A stretch of DNA of 59,722 nucleotides from Oscillospiraceae bacterium (lineage in GTDB: Bacteria > Bacillota > Clostridia > Oscillospirales > Acutalibacteraceae), in assembly GCA_015065425.1 (NCBI GenBank), contig SVQH01000016.1, positions 9,345 to 69,066 of the forward strand, in the 5' to 3' direction. Shown here in pieces: positions 3,142-15,959 of this stretch; the stretch's first letter is position 1, and each line of letters begins with the position of its first letter. The position numbers were made by a program, and so were the translations under genes. A model generated the notes under the pieces. The model saw nothing but the letters and a program-made list of their open reading frames with translations, ran no database searches and was not told the origin of the DNA.

Positions 3142-3369
3142 TTATTTATTTTCAAGAAAAGCAACGAGGTCGCCGACGTTTTTTATTTTTGTCAGATCAC
3201 TTGCTTTTATTGTAATCTTGAATTTTTCTTCTATTGCAGTGCCTATGTTCATGAGGTCGAAGGATGATGCACCGAGGTCATATCTGAGGGATGACTCTGC
3301 AGTGATTTCATCGGGGTCTGTTTCAACATATTCACAGATTATTTCTTTTAACATTTCAAGTATATCCAT
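3142..3369 (-). CDS. Acyl/peptidyl carrier protein
   Basis: This is a 75-residue carrier protein. A phosphopantetheine arm would attach to Ser36 in the segment DLGASSFDLM, where the usual D-S-L is S-S-F, followed by a normal helix III (AIEEKFKITI) and the closing VGDLVAFLENK. Fatty-acid ACPs almost always have DSL, so the altered site and the neighbours suggest a dedicated carrier for a specialised pathway. The start ATG overlaps the stop of the upstream acyltransferase gene by one base (TAATG) with GGAGGAAAT just before it, so translation is tightly coupled. It is the last gene of a three-gene operon with an AMP ligase and an HxxxD acyltransferase. No phosphopantetheinyl transferase is seen in the window. 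Confidence 0.88.
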   Translation of the reverse strand: MDILEMLKEIICEYVETDPDEITAESSLRYDLGASSFDLMNIGTAIEEKFKITIKASDLTKIKNVGDLVAFLENK

Positions 3370-4754
3370 TATATTTCCTCCAGAATTTCACCTATTGTTT
3401 TATCGGGATTTTCAACGCCCTTAAGCAATGTGCGTACAACACCGTCATTGAATTTATATACATCCTCATCCTTTGTAAGGAACAGACGGTGGATATAAGA
3501 AAATACGAATCTTCCCGTTGATGCTTCCTGCATGGTAAGGGCATATACAGGCATAACATAATGTCCGAAGTTATATGCAGAAAATTCATATTTTCTGTCG
3601 CCGAAGGCATTTTCACCTGCGGGTAAAAATGAGAACATCATGCTGTTTGCCGTCTGCATAAGAGAAAGTCCGTAACGGTCTCTTTCCAACTGACGAATAT
3701 CGGTAAACGGAACGTCGGAATGACGGAACAGGAATATCTGAGATTCGCTCAGCTGCCTTATTGTATCAATAAAAGACTTGTCATCGTCAAGTATCTCTCG
3801 CCAGGGCATAGGCGAAGCCAGTGTACCGCCGCAACGCTTTTCCTTTACAGTTCTTCTTCTCGGGCACAGCACCCAGAAAAGGGTATCATTGGTATGATAA
3901 TTCAATTTTGAAAGATAGATACGGAAACCGAGCTGTATGACCCATTCGGGACTTAACTGATTTTCTTTTATAAAGCCGTCTATCTTTTTGCTGTCTTCAT
4001 CACTTAAATGACACTTTACAAGATTTGTGGAATCGAGAACGGGAAGATAGATATGAGGCATATTCATATCCTTCTTATGCAAAAGTTTTCTTTGCATATC
4101 AAGCACCTTGGGACCGTTTATTGCATTATAGAAAGGAACACGGTCTTTTGCCATCCACTCGTCAACAAGCTTTCCCTCTCTCTTGATTCTCTCTTCAAGC
4201 TCAGGATTGTCCTGTTCCTTTATGATAATATCCTCATACTTTGACAAGGGTCTCGGCATGGGAGTATTATTTTTCAGGCTGTCGTAAACCGCCATAAGGT
4301 CTTTGAAAAACATAAACGCAGCAGCAAAGTCCATTATTATATGCGAAGCAACAATGAAAATACCGCATTTATTCTCGTGTGTACGGAAAAAAATTACGCG
4401 GAACATCTCACCGCCGAAAACATCAAGCTTTGCGGATGCAACACTGTCAAAATATGCAACCTGCTCCTCTTTTGAAGAGAACTTTTTTATCTGTATCTTA
4501 TCAAGCTTATATTCATCAAGAAAAAACTGCTTTACTCTGAGTTTTTCACGGAAAATGCGAAGACGCATGCAGTCATTTCTTTCAATTTCAACATTCACGG
4601 CACGGGCGAGAATTCTGAAATCCAGTTCTTCATCAAATGCAATGGCAAGAGGAACCTGCGTTGACTGCTTATGCACGGAATACTTCCACATGTACTGAAC
4701 CATTTCCTGTGAATGTATCAGTTTATAAACCGGTTCACCGTTTTTCGGTTTCAT
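3369..4754 (-). CDS. Condensation-like HxxxD acyltransferase
   Basis: This 461-residue protein belongs to the CoA/carrier-dependent acyltransferase superfamily that includes NRPS condensation domains. The active-site motif is SHIIMDF, with His138 and Asp142; condensation domains usually have HHxxxDG, so HxxxD is kept while the first His and the Gly are replaced. The N-terminus (residues 1-60) has the usual FRILARAVNVEIERNDCMRLRI pattern of such enzymes, split here by no gap. It should join an acyl or aminoacyl group held on the neighbouring carrier protein to an amine or alcohol. GAGGTGA precedes the start. It lies 21 bp after the AMP ligase and overlaps the ACP gene. The acceptor is unknown. 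An alcohol acyltransferase role is an alternative. Confidence 0.75.
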   Translation of the reverse strand: MKPKNGEPVYKLIHSQEMVQYMWKYSVHKQSTQVPLAIAFDEELDFRILARAVNVEIERNDCMRLRIFREKLRVKQFFLDEYKLDKIQIKKFSSKEEQVAYFDSVASAKLDVFGGEMFRVIFFRTHENKCGIFIVASHIIMDFAAAFMFFKDLMAVYDSLKNNTPMPRPLSKYEDIIIKEQDNPELEERIKREGKLVDEWMAKDRVPFYNAINGPKVLDMQRKLLHKKDMNMPHIYLPVLDSTNLVKCHLSDEDSKKIDGFIKENQLSPEWVIQLGFRIYLSKLNYHTNDTLFWVLCPRRRTVKEKRCGGTLASPMPWREILDDDKSFIDTIRQLSESQIFLFRHSDVPFTDIRQLERDRYGLSLMQTANSMMFSFLPAGENAFGDRKYEFSAYNFGHYVMPVYALTMQEASTGRFVFSYIHRLFLTKDEDVYKFNDGVVRTLLKGVENPDKTIGEILEEI

Positions 4755-4775
4755 TGGTTTTTCACCTCAGTTGCT

Positions 4776-6311
4776 TTAGTTATGGGCACGTTTAACTTTA
4801 CCGAGTGCCGTCTTTTCAAGAGGAGTGTCACGGACAATAAGCTTTGCTACGATATGTGAGGGCAGAGCCGTTTCATTAAGCTTATCAGTAAGTTCCTCGA
4901 GTGCAACCTTAATGTCTGTTATTCCTGAAAGCTCGGCATATTCCTTATTGGGATATACTTCAGCAACGATAACATCCTTATCGGCATAAACAAGCACTTC
5001 CTCTACAAGCTTATTTGCCTTATATTTATTTTCGATTCCCTCGGGAGAAACATTTTCTCCGTTTGAAAGAATGATGAGATTTTTAAGTCTTCCAGTGACA
5101 TAAAGAATTCTGTTTTCATCAATGTAACCGATGTCACCTGTACGAAGCCAGCCGTCCTCTGTTATTGCCTCGGCTGTATCTTCGGGACGCTTATAATAAC
5201 CCATCATCATACCGGGAGTGTCAAGCTGTATTTCACCGCCTACTATACGTGCATCAACGGTGCTCATAAGTCTTCCCACACTGTCAGCAGGGCAGGAGGG
5301 GTCGGGAAGTGTTACCTTTGCACTGGCTTCACTCATACCGTAGCCCTGTCTTACAAGTATACCGTAAGGCTCGAATGCCTTACATAATGAGGGGTCAAGA
5401 TATGCACCGCCTGAAAGCATCATATCAAGATTTCCGCCTGTAACCTGTGCTGCAGCTTCCTTGGGAGAAAGGTCGGGATTTTTTGCCTGAACAGCACGGA
5501 TTCTGCCTAAAATTGCCTGTGCAATAAGAGGAACTACTCTTATCTGGTCAGGCTTGAATATAAGAAGGTTTTTGAAAAGGTCTTTCATTTCACCGTTAAG
5601 GCATATACAGTTTCCTACATTAAGAGGACCTATGTAACCGCAGATAAAGCAGAAAATGTGGTGAAGAGGTAAAATTGAAAGATTTGTATCCACACGGATA
5701 ACAATATCATCATAAGGCTCGAAAATAAGGTTGCTTACAAGTGCTTCACATGAAAGCATAACACCCTTCTTATCGCCTGTTGTACCTGAAGTGTAAATGA
5801 TAAGACAACATTTTTCAGGCTCCATCTTATAATCGGACAAATGAGCATAGGATGATGTTTCGGAGAATTCTTTATATATATCAGCAAAATTATCATGGCT
5901 CATCACCATTTCATATTTAAGTGCGGGACAAAGTGCCCTTACTTCTTCTATTCTGTCAGAAAATTCTTCTCCGTACAAAAGAGCTGTTGCATCCGAATCG
6001 TTGATAATGGCGGCAGCATCTGCAGCCAGTGAATCGGGGTCAATGGGCACTGCCACATGACCGCCTACAAGAACACCTGTCATACATGCAATATATTCAT
6101 AAGTACTCTTGCTGATAATTGCTATATGAGTTCTTTCGGGAATATCATGACGAAGCTTTCTGCAGACGGCAAGTCCGTCGCTTCTTACTTCGCTGAATTT
6201 CTTTTCGATTATTTCTCCGTTGCGGATATATTTAATGAATGTTCTGTCGTTATGCTTCCCGGGAGCAACATCCAGCAAATCTCTTATGGTAGGTACATTT
6301 TCAAGTTTCAT
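4776..6311 (-). CDS. AMP-dependent acyl/aminoacyl ligase (adenylation enzyme)
   Basis: A 511-residue stand-alone member of the ANL adenylate-forming superfamily. Visible signatures are the phosphate loop IIYTSGTTGDKKG (about 171-183), GYGMSEASAK (A5), LRTGDIGYIDENR (A7), VTGRLKNLIILSNGENVSPEGIE (A8, given here in two parts by its hinge residues), and the catalytic Lys505 near the end in TALGKVKR. Such enzymes activate a carboxylic acid with ATP and load it on CoA or a carrier protein. With an ACP and a condensation-like enzyme downstream, loading the ACP is the likely job. Substrate cannot be read from the sequence. First gene of the operon, with GAAGGTGA before the start and a promoter about 60 bp upstream. 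Confidence 0.88.
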   Translation of the reverse strand: MKLENVPTIRDLLDVAPGKHNDRTFIKYIRNGEIIEKKFSEVRSDGLAVCRKLRHDIPERTHIAIISKSTYEYIACMTGVLVGGHVAVPIDPDSLAADAAAIINDSDATALLYGEEFSDRIEEVRALCPALKYEMVMSHDNFADIYKEFSETSSYAHLSDYKMEPEKCCLIIYTSGTTGDKKGVMLSCEALVSNLIFEPYDDIVIRVDTNLSILPLHHIFCFICGYIGPLNVGNCICLNGEMKDLFKNLLIFKPDQIRVVPLIAQAILGRIRAVQAKNPDLSPKEAAAQVTGGNLDMMLSGGAYLDPSLCKAFEPYGILVRQGYGMSEASAKVTLPDPSCPADSVGRLMSTVDARIVGGEIQLDTPGMMMGYYKRPEDTAEAITEDGWLRTGDIGYIDENRILYVTGRLKNLIILSNGENVSPEGIENKYKANKLVEEVLVYADKDVIVAEVYPNKEYAELSGITDIKVALEELTDKLNETALPSHIVAKLIVRDTPLEKTALGKVKRAHN

Positions 6312-6580: not shown

Positions 6581-7765
6581 TCACCCGGAAACTTTTTCTG
6601 ATCTGTAGTTAAAATACCATACAGGACATAAAATACTGTTATCATCAAGAAGATATGACACATTTCCGTTATTCCAGCATAACAGATTCAGAGTATCCCC
6701 TGCTTCAAGATATACAGAGTATTCTTCCCCGTAAACACTGCCGTCTCTTACTGAAATAACCGCACCGTAGCTCTCAATGATGTCCAGATATCCAATAAAC
6801 TGCTCTTTATCCGTTTCTTCATAAAGAACGGAATATGAGCACTGAAGTCCTTGAAGGTCATCACCGGGTTTTATGTTATATGTAACCTCGCATGTCTCAT
6901 CCCCGCCGAAATATACACAGAAACATTTGGAAAAGGTCCAGCCGGGACCTGCAAGAGGCATACAGCGGTCTCCCCATGAAAGGGCACGGGCATAGAATTC
7001 ACCGTAGTCCCCTGTGCCGACAGCCTTTTCAAGCATATCAAAATTGGTTTTCCACAAGGCATCAAGCCGAGCGTACTCCAATTCAAGCTCCGCTGTCCTG
7101 TCAAGGCATTCATCGGTCATTTTTTCAAGGCTTTCAAGGTTGTCATTGAATTCGGTTCCTGACGGGAATATTGCGGTCAGTTCTTCTGTCATTTCTGAAG
7201 GAAATCCTTTTTCACCTAATTCACAAAGAATATAATTTGTCATAAGACGGTAATACTCGGCATCAAGAAGGGAATATCTGTCATAATAATCGGCAATCCC
7301 TGAAATCCACTCCAGACCGTATTCCCAGTAAGCATCACTGAAAAAGGCTTTTCCGACAACATCCCATTCTGATATTCCCTGCAATACCCTGTCTTCAAGC
7401 AGGGTAAACTCAGAAGCAAGGAAAGAAATATCTACCCCCTTTTTAAGAGCCTTTGAATAATCTTCATCATCAAGAGTAAAAACAGGCAAATCATCTTCAA
7501 TAAGTGTTCTGAGGTCATCAAGAAGGGCAAAAACTGCACATATACTGTTGTTGTATCCGGTAATATCAGGGGAACTGCAGAAATCTTTTACATACGCTGA
7601 AGCCCACTGAGCACCGCTTATTATCCTGTTTTTTGCTTCAAGAAAATCGGTCAGATTTTCGATAACTTCCGCTGTCACACCGTCAGAAGCCGGTATATTT
7701 ATACAGCAGCCGGAAGAAACAAAAATAACACAAATGCAAAGAAATACGCATATCAGCTTTTTCAA
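6581..7765 (-). CDS. Lipoprotein of unknown function
   Basis: The 394-residue product starts with a lipoprotein signal peptide (MKKLICVFLCICVIFVSSGCC) and a lipobox ending at Cys20, so the mature protein should be anchored outside the membrane. The rest is rich in acidic and aromatic residues and mainly helical in appearance up to about residue 270, followed by a strand-rich end with several Cys. I recognise no catalytic motif. Its ATG overlaps the stop of the kinase-NACHT gene by 4 nt, so the two are co-translated. The partner has an extracellular C-terminal domain, so an interaction outside the cell is a reasonable inference: the lipoprotein could be a sensor, a ligand or a target. Confidence 0.7.
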   Translation of the reverse strand: MKKLICVFLCICVIFVSSGCCINIPASDGVTAEVIENLTDFLEAKNRIISGAQWASAYVKDFCSSPDITGYNNSICAVFALLDDLRTLIEDDLPVFTLDDEDYSKALKKGVDISFLASEFTLLEDRVLQGISEWDVVGKAFFSDAYWEYGLEWISGIADYYDRYSLLDAEYYRLMTNYILCELGEKGFPSEMTEELTAIFPSGTEFNDNLESLEKMTDECLDRTAELELEYARLDALWKTNFDMLEKAVGTGDYGEFYARALSWGDRCMPLAGPGWTFSKCFCVYFGGDETCEVTYNIKPGDDLQGLQCSYSVLYEETDKEQFIGYLDIIESYGAVISVRDGSVYGEEYSVYLEAGDTLNLLCWNNGNVSYLLDDNSILCPVWYFNYRSEKVSG

Positions 7766-10656
7766 TCTCTGTTCATCCTTTCATAAATTACGAAAATCTC
7801 CAGTGATTTCAGTTCTCTTGTCTTTTCATCACGGACACTCTTAAGCCTTTCCGTTGCGGCTCTGTCAGGCTTTTCAGGGTCATTTCTTCCGATATCGGCA
7901 TATTTCCCCACAGTATCCCAGTAATAGCCGTATTTTTCAGGTTTATCTGCTCTGAAGCTTTCAATGTGTCTTACACAGGCAGTATAAAACAGTGCGTCTG
8001 CAAGGGATGCATCCGCTTCAAGTCTCTCCCCGAGACGTGTTATAAATTCTTCTCCGTATTTTTCATAAAGTACGCTGTCACCTTCAAGGAACAGAAGAAT
8101 ATTGACAAACTCCTCGTATTCGGCGGGAATTTCTTCGGCAAGCTCAAAAAGCCCGGAAAAGTCATCTTCCGTAATCGCTTCTTTTGTAGTATAAATGACA
8201 TCGCCTGTCCTTATAAGTTCATTAAATATACGCCCGGTATTCTGACGGCTTCCCATGCCTGAGGAATTGAAAAGAATTTCACTCTGCTGCATGTCTCTCA
8301 GAAGAAGCTGTATTTTTTCATGTAATTCATCTTCATCCGAAGAATATGCCTGTGAAACATCGAGCATACCGGAAATATTCCTGCCGGTAAAAACATGAGA
8401 CGAAGCAATGGCTTCAAGATAGGAATCTGTCAGTTTTTCATCATATACATCAACGGAAAATACACTTACAAGTATAAACACAGCTACGGTAAGCAATACT
8501 GCAGAAGACACGGCAATAACCGAGTTCTGTTTTCTGACTCTGCGGTTTATGTCCTTATACTCCGAAAGCAGGTACTCTTCAAGATTCTGATGCATGATTT
8601 TATATGCACCCGACGGATCCTTCACGATAAGCCCCATGCTGTACCGCAGAATTCTGTTTACCGTACTTCCGTACCATTCCTCGGCATTTTTACTGCCGCC
8701 TTTTATATCCTTGCTGTGGCCTGTCCATCCGGGAAACAGGATGGGAAGCCTTCCGCCGGAAATAAGAGTGTAGCATTTCTTTACTGTCTTATAAACCTCT
8801 TCTTCACTGAGGGCTCTGTTTTTTGCATGCATCTCAGCACTGATAAACGGCAGAACAAGCTTTACTGCGGCATCGGTCATCCAGCGTTTTCCGTCTTCCT
8901 CGGAAAGCTCTCTTTTTTCCTTGTCACACAAAGCTTCAAGATATGCAGCCATCAGTTCATCTTCGTTTCTGCACTGAAGCTGTTTTTCATTGATAACTGC
9001 CGTTTTACAGAACACCGACAGCATCATGGGGATTTTCAGAAGCTCCTGCATCTCCCGTTTTTCGGGATAAATAAGAGAATGCTCCGAAAGAGTTTTTCTT
9101 ATATCTTCTTCATTGAGTAAAGCTGTTTCGAGAACGGAGAAAGGCAATTCCTCACTTTTATTTCTTGATGAAACGATAACTCTTACCGACGGCAGAAGGG
9201 CAAGGGCAAGAATTTCTTTTATAACAGGGGAAGAGTCTCCCGATATTTCATTCAATCCGTCAAGAAGCAGTATATATCGCGGTTTTTCTCCCTTACCGCT
9301 TCGGCAAAACTCCCTTACAAGTTTGTCTCTCGCATCCTCCATGCTATGCACGGAAGCATCAAATTTCAGATTTTCGAGAATTTTATTCTTAATATAATTT
9401 CCGTCACTCTCAGCACCGTACAAGGGCACATAAATTATTACGGGGCTGTTCGGTGAATAATTACGGCTTTGCTTTTTCACCGTATGCAAAAATGCGGTGG
9501 TCTTACCCATGCCACCTGCACCGTACATAAGAAAAGAACCCTTTTCCATACAGGCTTCAATCATTTTTTCCGTATCAAGGCTTCCGTATAACGGACTTTC
9601 AAATCTCAGAGGATACAGTCTGTCCCCGTCTTCAAGATAAGAAAATGCCGCATTTGTCTTTATCATTTTCAGAACATTGCGTTTTCCCGATTCCCATAAA
9701 GCGGCATGGGTGATGCCTGTCCCGTCAATTCTGGAAATAAGTTCATCTATATCCCGTTTCATGTCGTCACAGGTCTTATACCTTTTTGAAGGCAATACCG
9801 CAAGTCCTCTTTTAAGTATAAAAGCAACCTGTTTTTTTACCGTGTCGGGCATACTTTCAAGACAAGGACAAAGGGATACATCGGGAGGGGATTTACTTAT
9901 TCTCTGAAAAAGTGTCAGTGTTTTTCCCGTTAAAAGACGGTAAAACACGGCACATACGGAATAAATATCGGTAGCCTCACACACAGATGACAAATCACCC
10001 GAGGCTGTCTCGGGAGCCGTATATCCTTCTTTAATACTGCAATACAGAGTGGAGCCGTCTCTTATATCATCAATATGATGAACACTGTTATAATCTATAA
10101 GTGAGACACGGGAATATTCTCCCCTGCCGGTAACAAGAATGTTGTCGGGACTTACATCAAGATGCAGATATCCGCTTTCATGAAATATAAAAAGAGCATC
10201 AAGAAGCTGCCTCATAAACTGAGAGATTTCCCTGAGATCTTTCAGTTCATTTATTTTATCAAGACTTCTTCCCGAGTCAAAGCCTATTACACTGTATAAA
10301 GTCGAATTAAGTTCAAAGGTATTTATGTTCGCACCTGTTTTGTCAGGGTACTTTTCAAGAAGCCTAAGATGTATCTCATTTCCTCTTTCAAAACTGAGCT
10401 TCTGAAGATTGAAATAATCCATGGCTTCACAAATGAGTGTTCTGCCGTCATCACCGCGGTATATAAGGGCCTCCGGATGATAGGGAAAAAGCTCCTTAAC
10501 AAGAACTCTGTGAAGAATATCCCTGTTCAGTCCGTCAGGATATGTACACAGATATACTATGGCATTTGAGCCTTTACCGACGGTTTTTTCAACTGTACAC
10601 TTCATTCCCGGGAAAGGCAGAACTTCTCCGTTTTTCAACAATCTTCTGCTGTCCAT
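7762..10656 (-). CDS. Membrane-anchored protein kinase fused to NACHT-type NTPase
   Basis: A 964-residue fusion. Residues ~20-315 are a Hanks-type Ser/Thr kinase: glycine loop GKGSNA (27-32), probable ATP-binding Lys54, catalytic HLD (165-167) with Asn172, metal-binding Asp188 in LIDYN (replacing DFG) and APE at 214-216. Residues ~365-710 form a STAND/NACHT NTPase: Walker A GAGGMGKTT (379-387), Walker B LLLDGLNE (463-470), SSR sensor (496-498), and an end resembling the NACHT winged helix (MHQNLEEYLLSEY). One membrane helix follows at ~713-735, then ~230 residues predicted outside. Both enzymatic parts should be cytoplasmic and look active. Transcribed after the conserved protein at 10726-11892 and overlapping the lipoprotein gene. 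Likely a signalling device; input and target are unknown. Confidence 0.85.
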   Translation of the reverse strand: MDSRRLLKNGEVLPFPGMKCTVEKTVGKGSNAIVYLCTYPDGLNRDILHRVLVKELFPYHPEALIYRGDDGRTLICEAMDYFNLQKLSFERGNEIHLRLLEKYPDKTGANINTFELNSTLYSVIGFDSGRSLDKINELKDLREISQFMRQLLDALFIFHESGYLHLDVSPDNILVTGRGEYSRVSLIDYNSVHHIDDIRDGSTLYCSIKEGYTAPETASGDLSSVCEATDIYSVCAVFYRLLTGKTLTLFQRISKSPPDVSLCPCLESMPDTVKKQVAFILKRGLAVLPSKRYKTCDDMKRDIDELISRIDGTGITHAALWESGKRNVLKMIKTNAAFSYLEDGDRLYPLRFESPLYGSLDTEKMIEACMEKGSFLMYGAGGMGKTTAFLHTVKKQSRNYSPNSPVIIYVPLYGAESDGNYIKNKILENLKFDASVHSMEDARDKLVREFCRSGKGEKPRYILLLDGLNEISGDSSPVIKEILALALLPSVRVIVSSRNKSEELPFSVLETALLNEEDIRKTLSEHSLIYPEKREMQELLKIPMMLSVFCKTAVINEKQLQCRNEDELMAAYLEALCDKEKRELSEEDGKRWMTDAAVKLVLPFISAEMHAKNRALSEEEVYKTVKKCYTLISGGRLPILFPGWTGHSKDIKGGSKNAEEWYGSTVNRILRYSMGLIVKDPSGAYKIMHQNLEEYLLSEYKDINRRVRKQNSVIAVSSAVLLTVAVFILVSVFSVDVYDEKLTDSYLEAIASSHVFTGRNISGMLDVSQAYSSDEDELHEKIQLLLRDMQQSEILFNSSGMGSRQNTGRIFNELIRTGDVIYTTKEAITEDDFSGLFELAEEIPAEYEEFVNILLFLEGDSVLYEKYGEEFITRLGERLEADASLADALFYTACVRHIESFRADKPEKYGYYWDTVGKYADIGRNDPEKPDRAATERLKSVRDEKTRELKSLEIFVIYERMNRD

Positions 10657-10725
10657 ATAACTTCACACACTTTCATGACCCGTTTTAACAGGTAAAGTCT
10701 TCAGCCTTATTTTAGCATTATAAGC

Positions 10726-11892
10726 TCAACCGTTTTGCAAAGTGTTTCCGATATTATTTTCGGAAAACAGTGTCTGAAGAAACTCCGAAAGCGTACTGTC
10801 TGTTGCCCAGAAGTCCTCTGCACCCATACAGAAAATTATCATCCAATCAAAGGGATTGCGGGGGTCAAGAGTACTGAAACCGCAGGAGGAGAGCATGGTA
10901 TTCATGCTCATATAAAATTCCATGAATATTTCATCACGGCTTTTTTCCTTCTCTTCCTCATTTTCCAAATATTCATCTTCATCCGTAATTTCACATTCAT
11001 CATAGGTGGCAAGAAACAGAAGGATAAGCGTTTTTCTTGATATGTCTGCACGGCGGTTTTTAATTCTCGACAGCACGGACTCATCAGGCCAGTTTGCACT
11101 GACACTTTTCTGAAGAGCGGAATATAACGACTTCTTTTTGTTATCAGTGTTTTCGGGTATATCCTCTCTGTGCATATATGTTGCAACTATTCTTCCCACA
11201 CTGTATTTTTCATTTTCGGGGAAATAATCGTCGTCACTGCCGTAAACCTCGGGAGCTTCAAGCTTTTCCATCATTTCCGTAAAAAGGCTGTAAGCGGTAT
11301 TATGCATTTTTCCGAGCCGCGAAGCTTCACTTATCACATATTCCGTCAGTTCTTCTTCGCTTGAAATATTCTTTATTCTCTCGTGTATCACTGCGGTAAA
11401 GGTCTCACTGTCCTCTTCGGTAACATCTTTTTCTTTCAGTGCACAATTTATCTTTTCTGCAAGAGCTTTTGCCTGAAGATAATTCATGCCGTGCATAAGT
11501 GCGTAGATATAGGGTATCTCATCGGGATCACGCCAGTGAAAACCCTCTTCCGATATCATGGCAAGAAAATGTTCACTTTCATCAATCTGAAGTCCGAGAA
11601 TAAAACAAAGCTCAATGGCATCGGCTTTCTGTATGCCGGTCTGCCTGTCAGCCAGCCAATTTCTGACTTTTTTATCAACGGAATCATGTTTTGCTTCGGG
11701 ATGATTATTACAAATCCCCTCCGTCAGCAGTTTTCTGATATCCCGTCCTTTTGCAAAAGCTCCGAGCTTTGCACTGAGTGTCCTGAACTGAGTACATTCT
11801 CTCAGCATATTCACGGCTTCTTTAACATTCATTTCTCCGTTCACTGCTTTATCATACATCGCAGCAGATATTACCGTCATTTTCCCGTCCAT
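10726..11892 (-). CDS. Conserved Clostridial protein, possibly regulatory
   Basis: This 388-residue soluble protein has no signal peptide or membrane helix. Residues ~60-130 contain KKVRNWLADRQ followed by IELCFILGLQ and a FHWRDPDEIPYIYAL stretch, a pattern I remember from uncharacterised Clostridial proteins. It looks helical and could be a helix-turn-helix-like module, but I cannot confirm this. A very acidic segment (TDEDEYLENEEEKEKSRDE) lies near residues 315-333. ATG 11892 is chosen because GAGGTG lies four bases upstream; a TTG at 11910 is less likely. It is the first gene of an operon with the kinase-NACHT gene 69 bp downstream. It may be the regulator or the substrate of that kinase (inference). 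Confidence 0.6.
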   Translation of the reverse strand: MDGKMTVISAAMYDKAVNGEMNVKEAVNMLRECTQFRTLSAKLGAFAKGRDIRKLLTEGICNNHPEAKHDSVDKKVRNWLADRQTGIQKADAIELCFILGLQIDESEHFLAMISEEGFHWRDPDEIPYIYALMHGMNYLQAKALAEKINCALKEKDVTEEDSETFTAVIHERIKNISSEEELTEYVISEASRLGKMHNTAYSLFTEMMEKLEAPEVYGSDDDYFPENEKYSVGRIVATYMHREDIPENTDNKKKSLYSALQKSVSANWPDESVLSRIKNRRADISRKTLILLFLATYDECEITDEDEYLENEEEKEKSRDEIFMEFYMSMNTMLSSCGFSTLDPRNPFDWMIIFCMGAEDFWATDSTLSEFLQTLFSENNIGNTLQNG

Positions 11893-11925
11893 AATACACC
11901 TCAAAAACAAAAAAATGTTGTATTA

Positions 11926-11954
11926 ATAATATCACAGCCCTTATCCTTTTTCAA
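11926..11954 (-). promoter_or_regulatory. Promoter of the kinase-NACHT operon
   Basis: On the minus strand TTGAAA (11949-11954), 17-bp spacer, TATTAT (11926-11931), about 35 bp before the operon's first start codon. The whole 11893-12206 gap holds only this promoter and the divergent one at 12066. Confidence 0.6.
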
Positions 11955-12206: not shown

Positions 12207-13622
12207 ATGAAAAAACTCATTTCCGTTCTTGTTGCAGCAATAATGGTATGCAGTCTTTGCATTATTCCTGCATTTGCAGCAACAACTGAAGAAATTGCTC
12301 CCGCAGACGATTTCTGTCCGGCAAAGGGCGACGTCAGCAATGACAAAACGGTAGGTGCTGAAGATGCCCGTCTTGCTCTTCGTTATTCAGTAGGTCTTGA
12401 AGACCTTGACGATGAAGCTCTCATACGTGCAGATATGGACAATGACGGTGAAATCCTGTCCGCAGACGCAAGAAAAATTCTCAGACTTTCTGTTAAACTT
12501 GACAAAGCTCCCGCTCATGTTTATATTGAAAAGACAACAGAATCCACGTGGGTTACTGCAGGTGCTGATTTCGAGGAATGCTCGGCTTGTCATGACATAA
12601 TCACAAATGCTGTTTATGACACAAAGCTTCACGAAGTAATTGAAGCCGCAAATGCATGGGCAGAAGAAACAGGTATAGCTCAGTTCATTTCCGCTGAGGA
12701 CACAAACGGCGAAACAAACGAAGCTTCCCTTGAGCTCAATGTTGACGGAATCTGGGAAGATATGGACATTGACACTTCCGTATTTGACGGTTTCCTTACA
12801 AAGCTCGGTGATGTTATCGATACATATCTTACTGATGAAGATATTCTTACCATCGACGGCAACGAAGTATTCGCAAACGGTAAGGTTCAGAACACTGCTG
12901 TAAAGAATGCTCTCTTCGACATCGGTGCAGGCTTCTTCTGCAAGATGGCAAATCTTGCTGAAGACGGTGTTTACGGCACTTATGCTATAGAAATCAACGG
13001 CGAAGAAATCGCTCTTTCCGTTGCTTTCACAGGCAGCGAAGAAAACATTGAAAAGGTAAAAGGCTTCTGCCTTACAATCTCCGAACACATCAGTGCTGAA
13101 GTAGTTGAAGGCAACCTCGTAATCGATGTTTATGCTCCCGATGCTCTTAAGAACGTAATCATTGAAAAGGCAGGCGAAGACGCAAAGGTTTCTCTTGATG
13201 CTCTTACACTTGCAGACGGTTTCTCAATCGTTAACAATCTCAGTGTTGAAGAAGTATTCGGTTCACAGGCAAGTGCCGTAAATAAGCTTTGTGCATTCAT
13301 CTGCGAACTCAGCCCCTTCGTAAACAAGGTTCTCAGCAAGACAGATGCTAAGGTTGAACTTCAGGACGGAACAAAGCTCGTTCTCAATGCAAACGGATTT
13401 GACTGCAACGGCGATAACAGCTTCTCAGGTCTTGTTGACGGCTTCACAGGCGCTCTTTCCGATGAGCTTCTTGCAACAACAGTAGGTGCTTTCGCTGTTG
13501 AAGGCGAAGAATACTACAGTGTTCCTGTACACGTTTCAGTTGATTTGTCCTCACTCGGCCTTATGGCAGGTGAAACAATCGAAGAAACAGTTGTTCTCAA
13601 CATCCACGTTTTTGATAACTGA
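12207..13622 (+). CDS. Secreted protein with N-terminal dockerin-like module
   Basis: A 471-residue exported protein. The signal peptide runs to about residue 26 (…IIPAFAATT). Residues ~37-100 hold two calcium-loop repeats of dockerin type I: GDVSNDKTVGAEDARLAL and RADMDNDGEILSADARKIL, each a DxN/DxD loop followed by a helix. A short linker with a CSACHD Cys pair follows, then ~330 residues of acidic, hydrophobic-patterned sequence with no recognised catalytic motif. Dockerins bind cohesins in cellulosomes or on the surface; they are mostly C-terminal in enzymes, so the N-terminal position and unknown cargo are notable. GGAGGTAAG precedes the start. It is flanked by a promoter and a strong terminator, so probably transcribed alone. 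Confidence 0.75.
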   Translation: MKKLISVLVAAIMVCSLCIIPAFAATTEEIAPADDFCPAKGDVSNDKTVGAEDARLALRYSVGLEDLDDEALIRADMDNDGEILSADARKILRLSVKLDKAPAHVYIEKTTESTWVTAGADFEECSACHDIITNAVYDTKLHEVIEAANAWAEETGIAQFISAEDTNGETNEASLELNVDGIWEDMDIDTSVFDGFLTKLGDVIDTYLTDEDILTIDGNEVFANGKVQNTAVKNALFDIGAGFFCKMANLAEDGVYGTYAIEINGEEIALSVAFTGSEENIEKVKGFCLTISEHISAEVVEGNLVIDVYAPDALKNVIIEKAGEDAKVSLDALTLADGFSIVNNLSVEEVFGSQASAVNKLCAFICELSPFVNKVLSKTDAKVELQDGTKLVLNANGFDCNGDNSFSGLVDGFTGALSDELLATTVGAFAVEGEEYYSVPVHVSVDLSSLGLMAGETIEETVVLNIHVFDN

Positions 13623-13820: not shown

Positions 13821-15959
13821 ATGAAAATAATAACGAGAACCTCATTATCCGTATTGGCTGTCACGGTGCTTCTTTTCGCAGGTGCAGGTATTTCTGCGGC
13901 AAATTCCGATGATTCCGGTTTTGTCACTCAATGCTTCGCATCGGAAAGCATGGCTGTCCCCGATGACGGTATCATAATTACGGAAGATGACAATTATTGT
14001 TCCTGTTGTCATTCTCATGAACATACGAAAAGCGTTTTTGACAGATATGCGTGTTTTTTCTGTAAGGTCGGCAGATTTTTCAGGAGCATGTTCGGAAAAG
14101 ATGAAACTGATGTAATTCATAAATATCTGCTCATTTCTTCACTTTCTCCCACCTGTTTTGATACGGGAGAGAGAGCTTATGAATGTGCTGTCTGTAAAGA
14201 GAGTATTTCCTTTACAGACGAAAAGCTTACCCATATCCCCGTTCCCACAGAAGGAAAGGCGGCTTCATGTACCGAAGACGGGATTTCTGAGGGAAGTAAA
14301 TGTTCTTTATGCGATACGGTACTTGTACCGCAAAATATAATCCCTGCTCTCGGACATGATGAAATCATTGACTATGAAATTTCTCCCACCTGTACCGAAA
14401 GCGGCATTTCAGAGGGTAAACACTGCGGAAGATGTACCCTTGTTATCACTGAACAGCAAACTCTTCCCCCAACAGGTCACGATTTTGCAGACGGTGACAC
14501 GGTTTCGGATCTCAAAACTTACAAAACAGGTACAGGTCGTGCAACCGCCGACATTACCTGCTGCAGATGTTCACAGGTGCTTTCCGATTTCCCGATTGAT
14601 GCAGCGGCATCCGTGGGCGGCTACGGTAAAATTTATCATACACTCGAAGCCGCAGTAAAAGCAGCCAAAAATCAAACAGTATATCTCATCAACGACTACA
14701 CGCTCAAAAAGAATATCACAGTCGGAAACGGCATTACCCTTGTCATTCCGTGTTTTGTCGGAGATACGGGATACACGGTAAGAGATGACGAAGGATATTA
14801 CAGTAAATACTGTCCCGATAACCCCACTCAGGAAATAAACATTCATTCCTTCAGACGTCTCAGTGTTCCCTCTGACATAACAATAACGGTTGCAAACACA
14901 GGTACTGTTCTCATTTCTGCCGTAACAGGTCTTTTCGGCGGCGGAAATCCCGCAAGCTACGGCATATCGGGCGGTTACGGAGAAATTGAACTGGCAGGTA
15001 CAATAAATGTACAAAACGGCGGAATCTTTGACTGTTCAGGCTATGTAACCGACAAGGGCGGTGAGGTAAATCTCGCCAACGGTGCAAAAATGTTTGAAAC
15101 ATACGGTATTCTTTACTGGAGAGGCGGCTCTTATGCTTACGCCGCAAACAGCAAAGACATTTTCCCCATCGACGGTTATGAAATGAATTACATGAGAGCA
15201 AAGCTCAATATAAGTTACGGAGCCGTACTTGCAGGAAACTGCAAGATGTGTGCGGGTAATCTTCTGAGCGGACAATCTCAGTATTATTACTGTCATTTCA
15301 AGCTTATCGGCAACAGCGACGGCTTCCTCTACCGGATGAAAAACGGTGCAAGAGTTGAAAGAGTTGTGGAAAATGACGGCAGAACAGTGGTACGTGCTTA
15401 CGGTGACTTTGTTTTCGGTATTGCCAATATCAACGCAGGTATAATGAACCTGAAAACTTCGTCCTTCCAGGCATATAAGGTGGACGGAAAGCTCAGATTT
15501 GAGTTTTATGACGGTACAATAACCTGTAATCAGAAATGTCAGTTCATGCCCGGTGCTGAAATGACAGTCGGAAAGGGTGCCGTATTCAATATCTCGGAAT
15601 CAGGTGCACTTGTATTCTGTACAGCCAAGGATTATACAGTTAACGGTAATAACTATCCGGGCTATTACAGTTTTGATTCAAGATATGCAGGTGCATTATA
15701 TCCTGCAGGCAGAGATGATGCAAAGCTTTATGTAAAAGACGGCGGTAAAGTAGTCGTCAAAGGCAGCAGCATTTTTACAAAAGCATGTCTGGCAGGAATG
15801 GTCTATATTGATTCTTCTTCCACTGTAGATTTTTCAAAGAATTATTCAACCTCAGCAACACTCAAGGTCGCAACAGGTGCAATAAGCGGAGCATCAATCT
15901 TTGCAAGTGTCAAAGCAGAAGAATATACGGTTCCTTACATAAGGAATACTCTTTCATAG
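13821..15959 (+). CDS. Secreted Cys-rich surface protein with beta-helix-like region
   Basis: A 712-residue exported protein with a signal peptide (…LLFAGAGISAANS). After a Cys-rich stretch come repeats of the type ASCTEDGISEGSKCSLC and PTCTESGISEGKHCGRC, each ending in an ALGHD/PTGHD motif. I know these from surface proteins of gut Clostridia, where the paired Cys residues may bind metal or form disulfides. Residues ~240-710 are rich in short strands, Gly and Asn with a repeating pattern (e.g. GGIFDCSGYVTDKGGEVNLANGA broken into turns), consistent with a parallel beta-helix or a similar repetitive fold. No catalytic motif seen. ATG 13821 is chosen for its AAAAAGG upstream; longer in-frame starts would run through the leader hairpin. 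Role at the surface, perhaps adhesion, is inferred. Confidence 0.65.
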   Translation: MKIITRTSLSVLAVTVLLFAGAGISAANSDDSGFVTQCFASESMAVPDDGIIITEDDNYCSCCHSHEHTKSVFDRYACFFCKVGRFFRSMFGKDETDVIHKYLLISSLSPTCFDTGERAYECAVCKESISFTDEKLTHIPVPTEGKAASCTEDGISEGSKCSLCDTVLVPQNIIPALGHDEIIDYEISPTCTESGISEGKHCGRCTLVITEQQTLPPTGHDFADGDTVSDLKTYKTGTGRATADITCCRCSQVLSDFPIDAAASVGGYGKIYHTLEAAVKAAKNQTVYLINDYTLKKNITVGNGITLVIPCFVGDTGYTVRDDEGYYSKYCPDNPTQEINIHSFRRLSVPSDITITVANTGTVLISAVTGLFGGGNPASYGISGGYGEIELAGTINVQNGGIFDCSGYVTDKGGEVNLANGAKMFETYGILYWRGGSYAYAANSKDIFPIDGYEMNYMRAKLNISYGAVLAGNCKMCAGNLLSGQSQYYYCHFKLIGNSDGFLYRMKNGARVERVVENDGRTVVRAYGDFVFGIANINAGIMNLKTSSFQAYKVDGKLRFEFYDGTITCNQKCQFMPGAEMTVGKGAVFNISESGALVFCTAKDYTVNGNNYPGYYSFDSRYAGALYPAGRDDAKLYVKDGGKVVVKGSSIFTKACLAGMVYIDSSSTVDFSKNYSTSATLKVATGAISGASIFASVKAEEYTVPYIRNTLS

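Follow-up and report, generated by a model that had tools for sequence, protein, structure and literature searches.

A clostridial kinase-NACHT membrane protein with a lipoprotein neighbour looks like an undescribed kind of bacterial receptor

What might a bacterium do with a protein that joins a Hanks-type kinase to a NACHT module and then passes through the membrane? The question is raised by a three-gene cassette at positions 6,581-11,892 of a DNA stretch from an Oscillospiraceae bacterium (GCA_015065425.1, SVQH01000016.1), the whole 59,722 nt of which we call the window. Its minus-strand open reading frames (ORFs) encode, in order, a partner of 388 amino acids (aa), a 964-aa kinase-NACHT protein with a transmembrane (TM) helix, and a 394-aa lipoprotein. 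An original prediction had seen here an inside-outside signalling device, possibly an immune one. On a modest balance of probability, we read the cassette as a bacterial receptor system with interchangeable outside sensors, in which a signal would pass from the sensor to the NACHT switch, then to the kinase and finally to the partner.

The domains first proposed for the 964-aa protein were borne out. Pfam places Pkinase at residues 112-249 (1.7e-13, above the curated cut-off) and NACHT at residues 376-504 (2.2e-6; 28.0 bits against a cut-off of 26.7), and among 48 members scanned it finds Pkinase in 48 and NACHT in 46 (E 0.01). Residues and topology were assessed in 53 aligned proteins including the window's, all from ORFs of 900-1100 aa uncut by contig ends. 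Position 54 is lysine in 51 of these and arginine in two, while Asp167, Asn172, Asp188, Walker A Lys385 and Walker B Asp466 are invariant (53/53). The Pkinase fold, catalytic Lys, catalytic-loop Asp and Asn and metal-binding Asp are those of a Hanks-type kinase, with Leu standing for the Arg of HRD in the catalytic loop (HLD) and DYN as the window's DFG motif; the Walker A and B motifs and the profile match are those of a NACHT STAND module. The kinase alignment (A6) holds 52 of the 56 uncut 900-1100-aa kinases plus the window, and A8, A9 and A10 hold 50, 51 and 48 of its 53 rows; rows omitted from alignments were near duplicates, of odd length, cut ORFs or surplus to a set number. Moreover, the NACHT profile matches PDB chains of NLRC4 (best E 1.6e-5). 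An AlphaFold2 model of the protein (mean predicted local distance difference test score, pLDDT, 90.2; predicted template modelling score, pTM, 0.69) has a helical outside domain; its top Foldseek match is the kinase 5hnv (E 8.9e-11), and its kinase part matches PpkA and PknG. NCBIfam and PADLOC gave only kinase-level similarity for this protein and nothing convincing for the other two cassette proteins: PknB_PASTA_kin scored 46 bits against a cut-off of 450, and Pfam scans of the window protein and the 48 members found no PASTA match.

The anticipated topology was likewise recovered. In the window protein the most hydrophobic 19-mer covers residues 712-730, with 234 residues C-terminal to it, close to the roughly 230 expected. 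A hydrophobic helix occurs in all 53 aligned proteins (median start residue 727), followed by 214-257 residues, and lysine plus arginine (K+R) are more numerous in the N-terminal flank of the helix than in its C-terminal flank in 52 of the 53. The helix and its flanking charges predict that the C-terminal domain lies outside the membrane. The lipoprotein gene behind it does overlap by 4 nt, its TTG start sharing TTGA with the kinase-NACHT stop, and its product carries a signal peptide with the lipobox SSGC, as a lipoprotein should.

This arrangement recurs in other genomes. Besides the window's own genome, 250 genomes of its family gave one full relative (G106) and three partial matches, and 391 genomes of its class gave one further full relative (G605) and three partial matches. 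Because a single-sequence scan of genome contigs with the window kinase-NACHT protein found no relative, a three-row alignment of full proteins (A4) was built, and searching the contigs with it yielded 139 relatives; two of these, L101 and L087, appear to be the genomes G106 and G605. The relatives whose group is named belong to the Clostridia in the broad sense, often to Lachnospiraceae or Oscillospiraceae, with the less familiar names presumably clostridial as well. Isolates are among them, including the complete chromosome of [Clostridium] asparagiforme DSM 15981 (L089). Locus counts rest on the best 80 of the 139 relatives, near-duplicate pairs included. The partner gene lies at most 400 bp upstream in 67 of the 80 loci (on the same strand in 64 of these), a lipoprotein-family gene lies directly downstream of the kinase in 54, and both are present on the same strand in 49. 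Where the kinase ORF is uncut by a contig end and both flanks are long enough (59 assessable loci), the exact triad of partner, kinase-NACHT protein and signal-peptide protein recurs in 44, which supports a fixed gene order. Two further assessable loci (L090, L093) have the partner on the opposite strand, and two others (L125, L129) have short kinase ORFs. The median gap between kinase and lipoprotein genes is 1 base, with an overlap of exactly four bases in 11 of 49. Spacing and conservation suggest that the three cassette genes are co-transcribed.

The downstream proteins, judged by their profile, are one family. A hidden Markov model (HMM) was seeded with nothing but the mature portion of the window lipoprotein and iterated over the 80 loci, whose 5,534 ORFs (kinase ORFs excluded) it narrowed to a stable set of 57, one in each of 57 loci. 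Of these, 54 come immediately after the kinase, and the other three lie at or behind its end, within 3.6 kb. Homology through signal peptides only is ruled out, since this mature-part model still finds the family. A lipobox is recognized by pattern in 41 of the 55 linked downstream proteins. Pfam gave nothing convincing for the window lipoprotein, and the top PDB match of the lipoprotein profile was SG122_C3 (8e1e; 2e-4 over 92 positions). The alignment of long lipoproteins (A7) contains 22 of 23, window included. Signals of homology between the outside domain and the lipoprotein are weak (hhalign probability 33 and 21), and in L085 and L099 part of the outside domain (kinase residues 874-968) weakly matches the lipoprotein profile (9e-5, 3e-7); the two may share an ancestor.

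The clearest pointer to a common sensing role comes from fusions. In L061, L065, L066 and L075 the outside part grows to about 600 residues and consists of the usual outside domain (5e-15 to 8.8e-35) followed by a near-complete lipoprotein domain (3.7e-61 to 8.4e-129; 4.1e-53 to 8.4e-111 with the iterated profile). No separate lipoprotein-family gene stands directly behind these four, the sequence there amounting to 636 and 1,025 bases in L065 and L066; these two carry a different signal-peptide-like ORF, linked only to each other's. In the four fusion proteins the lipoprotein domain follows the outside domain on one chain, so both must sit on one side of the membrane. In other loci the outside part has been exchanged: L073, L077, L082, L084 and L123 have beta-propeller Pfam matches there, weakly also L062 (0.0024), and below E 0.16 neither the usual outside profile nor the lipoprotein profile matches this group. 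Tail segments of L081 are common to L082 and L123. The partner lies upstream in L082 and downstream in L123, and no partner was found within the available locus sequence of L062, L073, L077 and L084. Taken together, the fused and exchanged forms suggest that the outside domain makes up a single interchangeable unit with the lipoprotein, as a sensor head would look, and the topology signs, the four fusions and the propeller replacements give the inside-outside device of the original prediction its anatomy. One genome, RUG12263, holds three propeller copies behind the same kinase-NACHT-TM core (L073, L084, L123).

Evolutionary rates differ between the parts. Over 43 of the 55 linked lipoprotein loci, those with all three genes present, mean pairwise identity is 0.44 for the kinase, 0.36 for the partner, 0.34 for NACHT, 0.22 for the lipoprotein and 0.19 for the outside domain; the last two evolve fastest and the kinase slowest. 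The distance matrices correlate at 0.838 or more, and these alignments show co-inheritance of the cassette genes. With kinase and NACHT held constant, the partial Mantel r between outside domain and lipoprotein is 0.61.

At the other end of the proposed path stands the partner. Its model is all-helical (pLDDT 88.4), and no convincing match was obtained in Pfam, PDB sequences, PDB folds (none at E ≤0.001) or viral folds; on sequence and model it is a new helical family. The partner alignment (A5) comprises 53 of 61 partner proteins of at least 340 aa plus the window. Weak, scattered Pfam matches to TFIIA (0.00099, one partner protein) and to an Rv0078B-related antitoxin (0.0026, three of 54) were taken as chance, as was a PDB match to doublecortin (0.98), and an internal duplication was ruled out (hhalign probability 2.3). 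A broadened partner profile found the family in 16 of 21 non-control loci examined and had zero matches in 15 control stretches (300 kb). Several of the 16 already contributed rows to the profile or had been retrieved with the partner as query. Independent cases, fetched by the kinase and absent from the profile, are L024 (8e-10), L025 (6.7e-31) and L026 (3.2e-10). In 14 of the 16 partner loci the nearest kinase-motif ORF lies at most 415 bp away or overlaps; in L043 it lies 4.4 kb away, in a stretch with several such ORFs, and in L046 the script found none, yet a 194-aa one adjoins the partner on the other strand. The profile had no match in L032, L033, L034, L048 and L049. The adjoining kinases carry NB-ARC and TPR (L021, L025, L045), NB-ARC (L022), or a membrane helix and a long outside region (L018). 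Since the partner thus stands beside Hanks kinases with other modules, it is probably an output partner or a substrate.

Some of these loci are of interest in themselves. L043:4125-15465, on contig C31 of the window's own genome, holds several kinase-motif ORFs clustered with genes that by eye resemble those for PP2C and FHA/ATPase proteins, and includes a distant partner relative at 14128-15462 (E 1e-18). In L018:9803-14453 and L020:6171-10870 the partner family lies beside PknB-like kinases with a membrane helix; by eye, these kinases carry a cysteine-rich, zinc-ribbon-like stretch at the N-terminus and, outside, a long region resembling repeats. In L020 the partner and kinase genes are convergent.

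A constant kinase-NACHT core and a partner that follows the kinase, not one sensor type, argue for a path from head to NACHT, kinase and partner. We infer that the sensing head would consist of the lipoprotein, anchored on the outer face of the membrane, in contact with the helical outside domain of the kinase-NACHT-TM protein. Binding of a ligand, or envelope damage, would alter this head, and the single membrane helix would relay the change to the NACHT module, a putative ATP-dependent oligomerization switch. Oligomerization would gather the kinase domains and thereby activate them, and the active kinase would phosphorylate (or release) the cytoplasmic partner encoded upstream, which would carry the output.

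Several findings weigh against this receptor scheme, or narrow it. The partner is absent within 400 bp upstream in 6 of the 59 assessable loci, and 13 of the 59 have no lipoprotein directly downstream. Furthermore, the lipobox pattern misses 14 of the 55 linked downstream proteins, of which inspection by eye assigns four to a variant box and ten to an ordinary signal peptide; of the 41 that it accepts, at least two (L068 and L102) seem to be over-called. The swaps are not all explained, because the long tails of L081, L087 and L124 lack a Pfam match. The partial Mantel r between outside domain and partner, 0.53, is near the 0.61 for the lipoprotein, and the latter splits into 0.72 in the short-lipoprotein class (25 loci) and 0.16 in the long class (18 loci); by these figures, the outside domain and the lipoprotein show no specific coevolution over and above common descent. 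The partner is not the companion of every Hanks kinase, because L033, L034 and L048 hold kinase-motif ORFs with no partner relative. Finally, the partner has no predicted function, DNA binding being a possibility.

That possibility leads to the first alternative, a nutrient, surface or quorum sensor of transcription, in which the partner would be a DNA-binding protein set by phosphorylation; it is a special case of the receptor reading, and we hold it somewhat unlikely. PknK of Mycobacterium offers a precedent, its kinase being followed by a STAND domain at the C-terminus and the transcription factor VirS being one of its substrates (PMC4601284, from the part of the paper available), and by eye only, partner residues ~69-114 resemble the recognition-helix part of the Cro/C1 helix-turn-helix. 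Among 54 partner proteins, however, the sole helix-turn-helix family found by Pfam is HTH_54 in one (0.029), with none for the consensus, and the fold searches were no more forthcoming. Partner residues 121-388 are acidic (27 K+R against 54 aspartate plus glutamate), and the region upstream of the partner gene has no clear common dyad: no 5-mer dyad is present in more than 3 of 61 regions (five shuffles gave a maximum of 2), so that a common operator was rejected, and 6-mer dyads reach 2 against 1. One 10-mer occurs in 5 of the 61 regions, a figure that has no shuffled control. The earlier description of this gene as regulator-like has therefore found neither a convincing family, sequence or fold match nor a shared operator behind it.

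Could the cassette instead serve anti-phage or anti-rival defence? The head would then sense phage adsorption or a rival's attack, and NACHT and kinase would start dormancy or death, an account that fits most of the same anatomy, differs in ligand and output, and strikes us as unlikely. Known bacterial NACHT (bNACHT) defence proteins also place an effector domain in front of NACHT, according to the portion of PMC12169576 at hand. PADLOC matches 33 families on the 964-aa protein at E 1, including PD-T4-6, mad6 and MkoA, but the best stretches of the 25 matches listed all fall within residues 96-314 and do not reach past the generic kinase part. Three loci have a NACHT-pentapeptide gene right next to the cassette, at a distance of 1 base (L052), 43 bases (L055) or 14 bases (L064). 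In a comparison aimed at defence-island enrichment, which took 150 of 458 eligible flank ORFs and 150 of 190 eligible control ORFs, PADLOC matched 15 families in the flanks (22 family matches) and 4 in the controls (6), counts of families and not of distinct proteins, with controls from other genomes. The patchy spread, with a long match in one of 250 family genomes besides the window's own, would suit defence as well. Against it, the cassette's neighbours in the window include condensation, AMP-binding and dockerin-like genes, and among the Pfam hits listed no nuclease or pore family recurs, whether in the 48 kinase-NACHT proteins, the 10 long tails or the 54 partners scanned. Carriage by phages or plasmids was rejected as a means of spread: at E 1e-20 the queries used had no match in phage or plasmid records, and no relative was confirmed in IMG/VR. 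For an immune role, raised by the original prediction, the flank comparison is suggestive at most.

Among the neighbourhoods of other loci, the NACHT proteins with pentapeptide repeats (L052:6114-8786, L055:6036-8774, L064:5255-7939) are a second STAND neighbour. Tyrosine-integrase-like ORFs (by eye) lie ~570 and ~360 bases upstream of the cassette in L097 and L124, which could be integrated elements. GTPase-like genes and an HExxH protease-like gene (by eye) directly precede the cassette at L031:286-6883, and a dynamin-type protein lies near L109 (Pfam 1.2e-20).

That the cassette is a chance fusion or an annotation artefact, with no system underlying it, is very improbable indeed: two other sampled genomes of the window's genus have no relative at the thresholds used, but 139 relatives, the kept catalytic residues and a gene order maintained in 43 of the 67 clusters formed at 70% identity, the complete isolate chromosome L089 among them, rule it out.

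How, then, does the favoured receptor reading relate to known systems? Known bNACHT members keep their C-terminal sensor inside the cell, whereas the membrane helix and flanking charges predict an outside position for that of the cassette protein. The cassette further differs from bacterial NACHT/Avs proteins in having a Hanks kinase as its front domain and dedicated lipoprotein and partner genes. The general layout is shared, with a central NACHT, an effector-type domain in front and a variable sensor behind (PMC12169576, as far as the available text goes). PknK resembles the cassette protein in its order of Hanks kinase and STAND domain and has a regulator among its substrates; it is soluble in the accessible part of that account (PMC4601284), unlike the cassette, which has a membrane helix (in all 53 aligned proteins) and a lipoprotein, and whose partner matched no AraC-type family in the Pfam scans made. 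Like PASTA- and PknD-type receptor kinases, the cassette has its kinase inside, one helix and a sensor outside, and some long variants share an outside beta-propeller with PknD (PMC6213207, seen in part). Unlike them, it has no PASTA match, carries NACHT between kinase and membrane, and is accompanied by a lipoprotein gene. The conflict systems of Aravind and colleagues also bring S/T/Y kinases and STAND NTPases together (PMC7159879, PMC8195603); in the available parts of these papers they are described as preponderant in multicellular prokaryotes, and the clostridial triad was not met there. No description of the cassette was found in the literature searched, a partial body of text with thin coverage of subscription papers and no preprints.

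The layout of the cassette in the window is given in Table 1.

Table 1. Features of the three-gene cassette, in window positions.
Feature	Position	Strand	Description
Upstream partner gene	10726..11892	-	388 aa, all-helical, new family by sequence and model; relatives also adjoin other Hanks kinases
Kinase-NACHT-TM gene	7762..10656	-	964 aa
Hanks-type kinase domain	9721..10656	-	residues 1-312; HLD replaces HRD, DYN replaces DFG
NACHT STAND module and helical part after it	8557..9654	-	residues 335-700; Pfam NACHT 376-504
Single membrane helix	8467..8523	-	about residues 712-730
Outside domain (predicted)	7765..8445	-	residues 738-964, helical, fast-evolving
Lipoprotein gene	6581..7765	-	394 aa, TTG start; proposed outside partner
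Promoter-like site before partner gene	11926..11954	-	TTGAAA-17-TATTAT, consensus match only

The partner gene is read from the ATG at 11892, which follows GAGGTGTATT; the mechanical ORF begins at 11910. The promoter-like site has its -35 at 11954 and its -10 ending at 11926, with 10 of 12 consensus matches, and such sites are no commoner in the cassette region, with 11, than in shuffled DNA, with 13.8 on average. Terminator-like sites are commoner than in shuffles (10 against 4.7, sd 2.2); of those on the minus strand, five lie within the genes and none in the 69-bp gap from the partner to the kinase-NACHT gene. Ahead of the cassette and divergent from it, 12207-13622 encodes a protein that looks secreted and includes a stretch resembling dockerin (Pfam 5e-4, below the cut-off). 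Behind the cassette on the same strand, 3369-6311 encodes a condensation-domain protein and an AMP-binding enzyme, a small pair resembling a nonribosomal peptide synthetase.

Each component of the cassette is of a known kind; what is new is that a NACHT-kinase facing outward is joined by a lipoprotein partner and by an output family that is itself new, and as a whole it looks like an undescribed kind of bacterial receptor. To our knowledge, NACHT and other NLR-type switches have been studied as sensors of the cell interior. Tentatively, and at somewhat less than even odds, we propose an undescribed class of outward-facing NLR-like receptors with which gut Clostridia may watch their surface for attack or neighbours, with interchangeable sensor heads and a new family of output partners. 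If this is true, a conserved bacterial family with its sensing part outside would link receptor kinases to the NLR switch. The cassette would then be a tractable system for asking how a STAND switch drives a kinase, with the fused, split and swapped sensor variants as natural controls.

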